DNA from: Clostridiaceae bacterium
GTDB taxonomy: Bacteria > Bacillota > Clostridia > Peptostreptococcales > Tindalliaceae
DNA length: 64,000 nt
Assembly (NCBI GenBank): GCA_024635995.1
Contig: JAGXHW010000028.1
Coordinates: 1 to 64,000 of the forward strand
Reading direction: 5' to 3'
A model generated the notes under the pieces. The model did not search any database. It saw only the letters and a program-made list of their open reading frames with translations, and was not told the origin of the DNA. Position numbers and translations under genes: made by a program. Positions 9,575-37,925 of this stretch are shown here, one piece after another (position 1 is the stretch's first letter; every line of letters begins with the position of its first letter).

Positions 9575-10237
9575 TTAACCCAGTTGTTCGTTGAGGATTT
9601 CAATCAGTTTACGTGTCACGTCAGCGGTTACACCTGCACAACGGCTCTTTCTTTCAGGATCGCCATACTCACAGCCTTGAGCTTCCATAAACTTGTTTAC
9701 AGATTGTTCACAAAGAGTGCTTTCTGCAACGGTTGAGGGTAGTCCTAATTCTTCAGGCTGGTACATGGGGAAGGGCGTTTCCTTGTACCACTCAGACAGT
9801 TCATAAACAATTTTCTTCGCCTGGTCACCTTCACAGACTGCACCTGCACAAGCTGCTGCCACGCCGATACATCCGCACAAGCTTGCCTGGCCATAACCAC
9901 TGGCGGCAGGGATAAAGGCTTCTGTAGGAATTTGGTTGTAGGGGTAACCAACTTGTGTTGCCAATGTGCCGAAGAACCCTTCGGCTACGCCAACACCTCA
10001 GCCACCTTTTTCTTTGTAACCTTTGAAAGCGTTCTCTTCGGCAACTGCAGGGTCAACCTTTTCATAAGGCAGTGGCCAAGCATATGGCTCTGGTGTCGCA
10101 CTTGCGGTGGTGGTGGAACAGGCTGTCAAAACAGTACCCATGGTCCCTGCCATGGCCACGCCTGCCAATGTCACTCCAGCACCTTTTAAAAACTCTTTAC
10201 GTGATAATTGCTTTGTTTCCAATGTTTTCTTTTCCAA
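9575..10237 (-). CDS. Selenoprotein candidate: Tat-like lipoprotein of the C_GCAxxG_C_C (split-Soret-like) family, with in-frame UGA
   Basis: The ORF track shows two pieces, but both are in the same frame, separated only by UGA at 9998-10000. Read through, they give 220 residues from the TTG at 10237 (AAGGAGG upstream). Residues 12-18 SRKEFLK resemble a Tat signal (RK for RR), and LTAC (37-40) is a lipobox, so the protein should be exported and lipid-anchored. After residue 80 (the UGA) the family pattern continues: GYGQASLCGC, ELSEWYKETPFPMY, STLCEQSVNKF and SRCAGVTADV. The family normally has Cys at the UGA position (KGGU). No CXXCH haem motif is seen. A SECIS-like hairpin follows. The electron-transfer role of the family is poorly known. 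Confidence 0.85.
9955..9997 (-). promoter_or_regulatory. Bacterial SECIS-like element directly after the UGA codon
   Basis: In the mRNA, 12 bases after UGA, GCCGAAG pairs with CUUCGGC around a GGUU tetraloop. A second, outer helix GUGUUG:CAACAC encloses it. The apical loop starts about 20 bases after UGA and contains GGU, as in the E. coli fdhF element. This is as expected for SelB-dependent selenocysteine insertion. The element lies inside the coding sequence, and the reading frame is kept. Confidence 0.75.
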
Positions 10238-16621: not shown

Positions 16622-16906
16622 AAAAAACCCTTCCATCCTGTATAAGGACGAAAGGGTATCGCGGTACCACCTTACTTTCGGCAGTCACCAGGGGGTGATG
16701 CCGACACTCTAACAGGGTAACGGCCTGTACCGTCTGAATGTACGCATCAGCACCAATGTCACCGGTTGCCAATTTCCATCCAAAAGCTCAGAAGCTACCT
16801 TCAGCAGTCAGGGTTCCAAAAAAGCCTTGCAGCCGGGGGCTTTTCTCTCTGGGGGATCTGCTCTGCCTACTCCTCTTCATCATTGCCTGATGTATGGGGC
16901 TTTCTT
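16622..16906 (-). promoter_or_regulatory. T-box riboswitch of valS (valine specifier)
   Basis: On the minus strand all T-box parts are present: Stem I with AGAGAG and GGCTGCAAGG, a specifier loop read as GAAG-GTA-GC, a Stem III region, and the conserved antiterminator AGGTGGTACCGCG (16660-16672). A terminator hairpin ACCCTTTCGTCC/GGATGGAAGGGT with TTTTTT lies at 16622-16658. GTA codes for valine, in agreement with the downstream gene. Uncharged tRNA-Val would stabilise the antiterminator and allow valS transcription. Confidence 0.95.
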
Positions 16907-35507: not shown

Positions 35508-37400
35508 TTACTTATCCAACAACCAGTTTAAGGAAAGCTTTCTCAGAGTTGCCTCCGTTGGTTTGCCATCGTTGTCCCAACCCATGAACCCATAGTAAGA
35601 TGCTCTGGCTTTTTCGAAGTCTGCTTTTTTCATCTGGTGTCCCTCAGAAGGGCCATTAGGCATGGGGTCAAAAAGACGTTCCGGCAGTACATCATCCTTG
35701 GCACTGAAACCATCTCGCACATTAAACCAACGCATCATGTTTATACGTCGCTCCCCGATATCCATTAACTCCTGCACAGATGTCTCCCAGCCAATGCCAT
35801 ATTTACATGCATCGACCAATTCGGCAGGTCCGTACAACTGCCAGGATGGTCCCCAGGAAAATTGACACAGACACAGTGAATCCATCATGGAATAAAACTT
35901 CTGACCTGCAATGGCAAAACGGACTTTTCCATCGTCCAGTGTTTTTTGATCATCATACTGGAGATTGATACCCAGCATTCCCAGCCACACTTGTTCTTTT
36001 GCATCTGCCGGCATAGTGAGAAAAGGATCATGTTCACAGGATTGGTGGTCTGCCCCAAAGTTGTTGACAGCATAGATCAATCCCATGGCCGGTTTATACT
36101 GGGGCATGTGGGCAGGCAGTTCCTGTTTCTTCACACTTACACTGAGTGGCAGCGCTTCGGGTCCCAGTTTTTCTGCCATACGGTAGCTGCCTTCTGCCAT
36201 CATGTTGCCTATTCCTTCCCGCAGGGCAATTTTTTTAATCAGCTCCGGATAAATTGATCCATTACCGAAGGTGATGTCCATGCCATCCGCATCTTCTTTG
36301 GTCAAAATGCCTTTTTCCATACACTCCATCACAAATGCGATGGTGGCTCCACAGGAGATGGTGTCCAGGCCATACATATTACAGTATTGGTTTGCCACGG
36401 CTATGTCTTCCAGGTTCTCTGTCTGACAAAACGAACCGAAAGCAGCACAAGTTTCATATTCCGGGCCGCCATAGAAAGGATCCACTTTACCTTCCACTTC
36501 GACAACACGCTTACAGCGTATGGCACAACTGAAACAGGTGTCTCTGCCTTTCAGAATGGTTTTAGCCATGGTTGTACCGGTAATTTTTTTGGCGCTGTCT
36601 CCAAAATACCCTGAGCTAAAATTGCGTGTGGGCAGAAAACCGTCCCGGTTATGACTATTCAGTTCACCGTCTGTACCAAACTGGCCTAACGCCTCGACGC
36701 CTTCATTTTCGGTAATACGTTCTTTCACATTACCTGTTAAAGTCTTAAAACCTTCCTGATCCACCGCCTTTCTTGCCTTACCTTTTTTTACCACCACAGC
36801 TTTCAATAGCTTGGATCCCATCACTGCCCCTGTTCCGTTGCGGCCGTTGGCACGATTTGACATGTTCATAATGGATGCATATTTTACCATATTTTCCCCA
36901 GCTGGACCGATTTGAGCAATTTCCAGTTGTTCGTCTTCCAATTCTTCCTTAATTATTTTTTCTGCTTCACCGGTTACCTTGCCCCACACTGAAGAAGCAT
37001 CTTTTAATGCCACTTTTTCTCCATCAATGTAAAGATATACAGGTTTTTCTGACTTTCCCCGAAAGATGATGGCGTCATAACCGTTAATCTTCAGCTGAGC
37101 CGGAAAAAAACCACCTGACTGGCTGTCACCTATGGTGCCTGTCAAAGGACTTTTTGTGGTGATGGTCAACCTGCTTTGACCGCTGATGGGCAACCCTGTC
37201 AGCACTGAAACTGAAAAAATCAACATATTCTCCGGGGATAAAGGATCAATGCCGGCTCCCATTTCCTGCAAGGCCAGGTATAACCCCAGGGAAGACCCTC
37301 CTGGGTACAACCTGTAAATCTCTCCGGACAGTGTTTTGGTATCAATGGCACCTTTGCTTAAATCAACGTCCAATATTTTTGCATCAGGAAACACACTCAT
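35508..37400 (-). CDS. aor: Aldehyde:ferredoxin oxidoreductase (tungsten pterin)
   Basis: A 630-residue enzyme that oxidises aldehydes to acids and reduces ferredoxin, or the reverse. N-terminal pterin-binding marks are YPGGSSLGLYL (about 29-39) and SVLTGLPISGQSRLTITTKSPLTGTIGDSQSGGFF in pieces. The [4Fe-4S] ligands lie in CFSCAIRCKRV and, further on, a single Cys in MDSLCLCQFSW. FGADHQSCEHDP and GIGWETS are also family-like. It binds a W- or Mo-bispterin without nucleotide. The start ATG has GAGGAG before it. Two 20-22-base direct repeats lie in the leader. Cotranscribed with the MoaD-like gene. Confidence 0.95.
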   Translation of the reverse strand: MSVFPDAKILDVDLSKGAIDTKTLSGEIYRLYPGGSSLGLYLALQEMGAGIDPLSPENMLIFSVSVLTGLPISGQSRLTITTKSPLTGTIGDSQSGGFFPAQLKINGYDAIIFRGKSEKPVYLYIDGEKVALKDASSVWGKVTGEAEKIIKEELEDEQLEIAQIGPAGENMVKYASIMNMSNRANGRNGTGAVMGSKLLKAVVVKKGKARKAVDQEGFKTLTGNVKERITENEGVEALGQFGTDGELNSHNRDGFLPTRNFSSGYFGDSAKKITGTTMAKTILKGRDTCFSCAIRCKRVVEVEGKVDPFYGGPEYETCAAFGSFCQTENLEDIAVANQYCNMYGLDTISCGATIAFVMECMEKGILTKEDADGMDITFGNGSIYPELIKKIALREGIGNMMAEGSYRMAEKLGPEALPLSVSVKKQELPAHMPQYKPAMGLIYAVNNFGADHQSCEHDPFLTMPADAKEQVWLGMLGINLQYDDQKTLDDGKVRFAIAGQKFYSMMDSLCLCQFSWGPSWQLYGPAELVDACKYGIGWETSVQELMDIGERRINMMRWFNVRDGFSAKDDVLPERLFDPMPNGPSEGHQMKKADFEKARASYYGFMGWDNDGKPTEATLRKLSLNWLLDK

Positions 37401-37460: not shown

Positions 37461-37613
37461 TTCGCTGACCCGCTTCGTCGGTTATTCGACAAAAAACTTA
37501 AAATTCCTCCCAAATTTTCACATTTTTTGTAATTTCCATTCCACTTAACTTTGTGGTATCATAATCATAGAGAACAGTTATCAACTATCCCTTTTAAGAT
37601 TGAAGGTGAATGA

Positions 37614-37925
37614 ATGAAAAACAGTAAAGATCATCTCCTGGGTGCCGGTGCTGTTGTTGGTGCTTTCTTGTCAGCTATATGCTGAGTGGTGCCCATGGTG
37701 GTTGTGTCACTAGGACTTGGTGGCTTTGCATTGTCATATGTTTCTGTGCTGGCTCCTTACCAGCGTTACATTCAATTTGTAACCATAGGATTGCTCATGT
37801 GGGCTCATTACCGTATGGACAAACAGGTTATGAAACGCAGTACCATAATTTTTATCTGGACCGCAACAGTGGCTGTCATGCTCTTTCTGCTGTCGCCACT
37901 CATCACACGTCTTCTGCTCTATTAA
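37614..37925 (+). CDS. Selenoprotein candidate: MerT-like membrane protein with Cys-Sec pair (in-frame UGA)
   Basis: ATG at 37614 (GAAGGTG upstream) runs 23 codons to UGA (37683-37685), then continues in the same frame for 79 codons to TAA at 37923-37925, giving 103 residues. Three hydrophobic helices are visible. The first reads GAFLSAIC-U-VVPMVVVSLGLGGF, which matches MerT-type mercuric transporters (SLCCVxPLxLVSLGLGG) with selenocysteine in place of the second Cys of the vicinal pair. YQRYIQF at the second helix also fits. MerT's later cytosolic Cys pair is absent. Transport of Hg2+ or another thiophilic metal is inference. The ORF track calls only the part after UGA. No MerR or MerA gene is adjacent. 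Confidence 0.82.
37686..37718 (+). promoter_or_regulatory. SECIS-like stem-loop after the UGA of the MerT-like gene
   Basis: In the mRNA after UGA, CC-(A)-UGGUG pairs with CACUA-GG, with one bulged A and a 7-base loop GUUGUGU that begins about 16 bases after UGA. The distance, the bulge and a GU-rich loop agree with bacterial SECIS elements, but the helix is weaker than that in the gene at 9575-10237. Confidence 0.5.

Follow-up and report, generated by a model that had tools for sequence, protein, structure and literature searches.

The window, a stretch of 64,000 nucleotides from a Clostridiaceae bacterium, contains a 103-codon MerT-like frame that is interrupted by a single TGA at codon 24, directly behind a Cys codon, exactly as the original prediction had described it. 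The frame is preceded by a Shine-Dalgarno-like sequence and followed by a stem resembling an intrinsic terminator (for an overview see Table 1). With UGA read as selenocysteine (Sec, U), the product is MKNSKDHLLGAGAVVGAFLSAICUVVPMVVVSLGLGGFALSYVSVLAPYQRYIQFVTIGLLMWAHYRMDKQVMKRSTIIFIWTATVAVMLFLLSPLITRLLLY. Standard ORF calling yields one entry in this frame, a shorter form that starts at a GTG immediately behind the TGA, so that the predicted active site is missed, as had been anticipated. The gene is flanked by a divergent gene for an aldehyde ferredoxin oxidoreductase on one side and by a convergent gene for a HAD hydrolase on the other, an order that is kept only within the same family, and it looks monocistronic. 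No mer neighbors of the gene were found in the window, in agreement with the earlier statement that neither merR nor merA lies beside it.

Some further observations were made in and around this region. The oxidoreductase gene is full length beside the MerT-like gene, and at three loci of the related genus g2 (L074-L076) a short piece of some 207 residues takes its place. Elsewhere in the window, a read-through frame of 220 residues with a TGA at codon 80 (GGUGVGVAEGFFG) represents a second selenoprotein candidate, which matches PF09719 (C_GCAxxG_C_C) above cut-off and, in addition, a split-Soret cytochrome model; C_GCAxxG_C_C has already been listed as a selenoprotein family (PMC13188914). A T-box leader is positioned upstream of an apparent valyl-tRNA synthetase gene.

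Table 1. Positions of the MerT-like gene, its signals and other features within the window.
Feature	Position	Strand	Basis
MerT-like read-through gene (103 residues, C23-U24)	37614..37925	+	ATG at 37614, TAA end at 37925
TGC TGA, Cys23 and codon 24 read as Sec	37680..37685 (TGA 37683-37685)	+	TGA or Cys in all homologous loci read
Short form with GTG start	37686..37925	+	standard ORF calling
Shine-Dalgarno-like GAAGGTGA ahead of ATG	37602..37609	+	sequence
SECIS-like hairpin GUCACUA-GGACU-UGGUGGC	37706..37724 (loop 37713-37717)	+	synonymous-codon test, pair counts, bacterial SECIS rule
Intrinsic-terminator-like stem 3' of stop codon	37928..37949	+	9 pairs, 6 G-C
Aldehyde ferredoxin oxidoreductase gene	35508..37400	-	
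Second selenoprotein candidate	9575..10237	-	PF09719, split-Soret cytochrome model
T-box leader	16641..16892	-	RF00230, 107 bits

The prevalence of the gene was determined by profile searches in samples of the order, the class and the phylum. It was present in 15 of 41 near genomes, in 33 of the 297 order genomes, in 12 of the 391 class genomes (ten with a strong match), and in 23 of 260 genomes of the phylum sample, and nearly all copies found by these searches contained exactly one TGA. One of the relatives, in Anoxynatronum buryatiense (L003), encodes a protein with 61% identity. Of the 60 loci that were read, 57, representing 37 genera of Bacillota, had TGA at the position corresponding to codon 24 (37 of the 40 order and class homologues, and all 20 read from the phylum search). 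The other three loci (L081, L094 and L100) had Cys at this site, which is the sole alternative to TGA and the residue that the original prediction had proposed to look for. The in-frame TGA of the MerT-like gene is thereby conserved far beyond chance, and as the same TGA recurs in 57 loci, a sequencing error, which had been considered at the outset, is ruled out. Purifying selection acts on both sides of the UGA, with a pooled pN/pS of 0.19 for the 20 codons before and 0.16 for the 69 codons after it. One of the Cys forms, L094 (G083:C36), is interrupted by an in-frame TAG within the conserved stretch LG*SG and may be decaying; a TGA-form copy is kept in the same genome.

The genome of the window (1.88 Mb, 75% complete) possesses all four genes for which a check had been suggested. 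selA, selB and selC are adjacent on contig C10, and selD, which carries a TGA itself, is located 2.3 kb beyond them. Within the order, SelA was identified in 30 of the 32 genomes with the TGA form, the two lacking it being 79% and 63% complete, compared to 177 of the 265 remaining genomes (Fisher p 6e-4 for TGA form vs. SelA). SelA was absent from both genomes that have the Cys form only (G019 and G489), each of which is 99% complete.

The presence of a stem-loop behind the UGA required an analysis at the level of the family. Plain folding of the 56-60 nt after the UGA of the window sequence gave a result no better than that of dinucleotide shuffles (z +1.2), and the stem-loop is therefore not demonstrable from the window sequence alone. 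Also RNAalifold returned no consensus structure for 15 aligned contexts, because the stem shifts by one register between subgroups. This slip was overcome by splitting the contexts into three registers and by a synonymous-codon test, in which the synonymous codons were randomised for each gene and windows of 24 nt were folded in steps of 3 nt. In this test, the segment +19..+42 after the UGA displayed a mean z of -2.56, with 29 of 37 at p<0.05, and when one locus per genus was used (n=21) the mean z was -2.74 with a combined p of 9e-18. No comparable window occurred in the rest of the gene. The signal was reproduced by the 20 phylum loci (mean z -2.45, 15 of 20), the hairpin of the window sequence itself reached z -2.6 (p 0.01), and the three Cys homologues gave no hairpin signal (z -0.1 to -0.6). 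Covariation was observed in register group A3, where two pairs showed double changes and 100% of the cells were paired, and for one pair in register group A4; the paired positions of register group A5 showed none.

In the window sequence the loop begins 27 nt downstream of the UGA, and in many homologues it reads AGGUCU or GGUCU. The rule for bacterial SECIS elements asks for a G in the first two loop positions, a distance of 16-37 nt from the UGA and a folding energy of -7.5 kcal/mol or below (PMC13188914). Loop and spacing of the window hairpin agree with this rule, and the energy of its 24-nt piece, -7.4 kcal/mol, is borderline. The stem-loop is real at the family level and is kept beyond the constraint of the protein. 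The earlier proposal of such an element is supported by the family-wide selection, and its place and loop are corrected to those given in Table 1. Taken together, the conserved TGA, Cys as its alternative, the presence of selABCD and the hairpin indicate that the UGA at codon 24 almost certainly encodes Sec. None of the three refuting outcomes named with the original prediction was observed.

The window protein matches PF02411 with 28.0 bits (E 2.4e-6), which is below the curated cut-off of 32.9, and it falls under the curated NCBIfam cut-offs too; upon omission of the part before the UGA, the E-value for PF02411 rises to 0.073. At the family level, each of the 16 members of alignment A1 hits PF02411 and the two NCBIfam MerT models NF010314 and NF033560 at E<0.01, the best model being that of the Bacillus RC607-type MerT (NF033560). 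Matches to annotated MerTs on plasmids extend over almost the entire length (e.g., Halomonas, E 6e-9). These results support the original proposal that the protein is MerT-like. C23-U24 aligns on the C-C pair of three annotated plasmid MerTs. The MerT part of NF045683 (MerT_CopZ_Se) also matches all 16 members and covers residues 7-60 of the window protein (E 1.5e-5; 24.6 bits vs. a cut-off of 375). This model of 235 positions describes a fusion with a C-terminal HMA/CopZ-like part that the window protein does not have, and the phylum search with it retrieved mainly HMA/CopZ domains and no member above cut-off.

An AlphaFold model of moderate confidence (pLDDT 67, pTM 0.46) consists of three helices, and by hydropathy helices 1 and 3 are strong and helix 2 is weak. 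MerT of the Tn501/Tn21 type possesses a second pair of Cys residues, located on the cytoplasmic side between its helices 2 and 3. This pair is absent from the window protein and from the family, as had been noted before; its absence, together with that of merR and merA, had been taken as a hint of a separate metal or selenium-linked function. An RC607-like MerT of Exiguobacterium, the gene of which adjoins merB, merR, merE, merP and merA, has the same short loop without Cys between helices 2 and 3, and the missing pair therefore fits an RC607-like MerT and does not constitute a departure.

At most loci of the relatives the gene stands alone and in unrelated places. A second copy in genome G122 (L092, G122:C35:24000-40000) is located inside a mer operon with the order CopZ-like selenoprotein (U-C), MerB, MerT-U, ArsR, MerA and CopZ-like selenoprotein (C-U), in which MerB (261 bits) and MerA (573 bits) are both above cut-off and three selenoprotein genes occur in one operon. 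ArsR adjoins the TGA loci L097, L156, L160, L161 and L163, a MerR-family regulator adjoins the TGA locus L162, and a CopZ-like protein adjoins the Cys forms L094 and L100. The neighbors of several relatives include Csac_0668 / CopZ_Nterm_CU 2Fe-2S (seleno)proteins (NF045877), which have a C-U motif of their own but are soluble, metallochaperone-like and without homology to the window protein. Nine phylum relatives (L154, L155 and L165-L171) have the form C-x-[TAS]-U, and in each case a rhodanese gene of lipoprotein-like character comes next (+316 to +363), the rhodanese domain having been confirmed for two of the nine; a two-component system is located beside some of these pairs. MerA was detected above cut-off in 3 of the 297 order genomes and in one of the 33 that have the MerT-like gene, namely G122, and was not found in the clade of the window.

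MerT picks up Hg(II) at the Cys24-Cys25 pair of its first helix and relays it across the membrane, and Hg(II) transport requires this pair (PMC5715351). By analogy, the best explanation for the window gene is a MerT-type (RC607-like) inner-membrane carrier that uses a thiolate-selenolate pair to move Hg(II) or a different soft ion, to which we assign a probability of roughly 0.6. SelB and tRNA-Sec would decode the UGA at codon 24 as Sec, aided by the hairpin about 27 nt downstream. The vicinal pair Cys23-Sec24 would sit in the first of three predicted membrane helices, where it may capture a soft cation, for which Hg(II) or an organomercurial is the likeliest candidate, and hand it across the membrane, and the selenolate would be expected to give tighter binding than in MerT. 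As MerA was not found in the clade of the window, Hg(II) moved by the protein would need another fate there, such as capture by thiols, by selenide or by a partner as yet unknown. Judged from the sequence comparisons, the recoded frame, the family, the site, the Sec machinery and the SECIS-like hairpin are, as a set, very probably correct, and for the substrate, the direction of transport and the role of Sec as a ligand taken jointly the odds appear slightly better than even. The carrier interpretation is favored by the position of C-U on the C-C pair of MerT, by the operon of L092 and by the ArsR or MerR neighbors at six further TGA loci. Against it speak the lack of mer neighbors in the window, the rarity of MerA among the order genomes with the gene, the scores of the window protein below the curated cut-offs and the rhodanese gene beside nine relatives. 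A wider proposal, which we put forward tentatively and consider rather doubtful, is that such thiolate-selenolate carriers are widespread and mostly stand-alone in Bacillota, serve in normal physiology to handle a chalcogen or a soft metal independently of mercury reductase, and have been recruited by mercury operons.

The Cys-Sec pair might carry sulfane sulfur, selenide or a similar species through the membrane and not a metal, with the extracytoplasmic rhodanese lipoprotein loading or unloading the chalcogen in some relatives. Because of the rhodanese gene that follows the nine C-x-[TAS]-U relatives, a sulfur or selenium substrate stays a rival, and most hosts of the gene are without MerA. 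However, it is the C-x-x-U subfamily that has the rhodanese neighbor, not the vicinal C-U form to which the window protein belongs, and C-U relatives are found beside metalloregulators and once beside MerA and MerB. Moreover, genomes lacking SelA still retain Cys forms, so that supplying selenium for Sec is not the role of the Cys forms. We regard transport of a chalcogen as unlikely. A little less probable still is a membrane thiol/selenol redox protein, in which a Cys23-Sec24 selenylsulfide would shuttle electrons and no metal would be carried. Known selenoproteins use Sec mostly for redox chemistry (PMC13188914), and the vicinal pair could conceivably form a selenylsulfide, but the homology to MerT extends over the whole length, metal-related genes occur among the neighbors, and no conserved redox partner gene was found among them.

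It might finally be argued that the TGA is an ordinary stop, the product being either the short protein starting at the GTG or the remnant of a decayed merT. The result of standard ORF calling and the in-frame TAG in the Cys copy L094 would be in line with this, but the TGA is kept in 57 loci, purifying selection acts on the 20 codons that precede it, the match to MerT needs the part before the UGA, and SelA co-occurs with the TGA form, rendering an ordinary stop highly improbable.

If the interpretation as a soft-ion carrier is correct, a selenolate in the MerT relay pair would represent the use of Sec as a metal ligand in transport and not in redox catalysis, and the natural Cys twins make a comparison of Sec and Cys testable. 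The stand-alone copies pose the question of which role a MerT-like carrier has in hosts without MerA. As standard ORF rules drop the active site, a gene that occurs in 33/297 genomes of an order is easily overlooked.

The idea of a MerT selenoprotein is not new, since the selenoproteins listed in reviews already include a PF02411 member, ABB16073.1, under the name 'putative mercuric transport protein' and with the motif C/SxxU (PMC9312934, PMC13188914); in addition, two mercuric-transport selenoproteins were listed in the Global Ocean Sampling study (PMC2398784), and NCBIfam includes a MerT/CopZ selenoprotein model (NF045683). In the literature, of which recent work was incompletely covered, we found no description of a short, mostly stand-alone subfamily with vicinal C-U or of a mer operon with three selenoproteins. 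Like MerT of the RC607 type (NF033560; PF02411), the window protein has about 100 residues and the first-helix pair at the same place, with three helices predicted at moderate confidence, but the second residue of its pair is Sec and no mer operon surrounds its gene. With ABB16073.1 (PF02411, C/SxxU) it shares the character of a MerT-family selenoprotein, but it has a vicinal Cys-Sec pair, ABB16073.1 being compared by its published motif only. The nine C-x-[TAS]-U relatives fit C/SxxU and their Sec aligns to the Sec column of the window protein, suggesting that the Sec site of the listed selenoprotein is probably the codon-24 column as well. The window gene thus belongs to an unannotated subfamily of the already known MerT-family selenoproteins.
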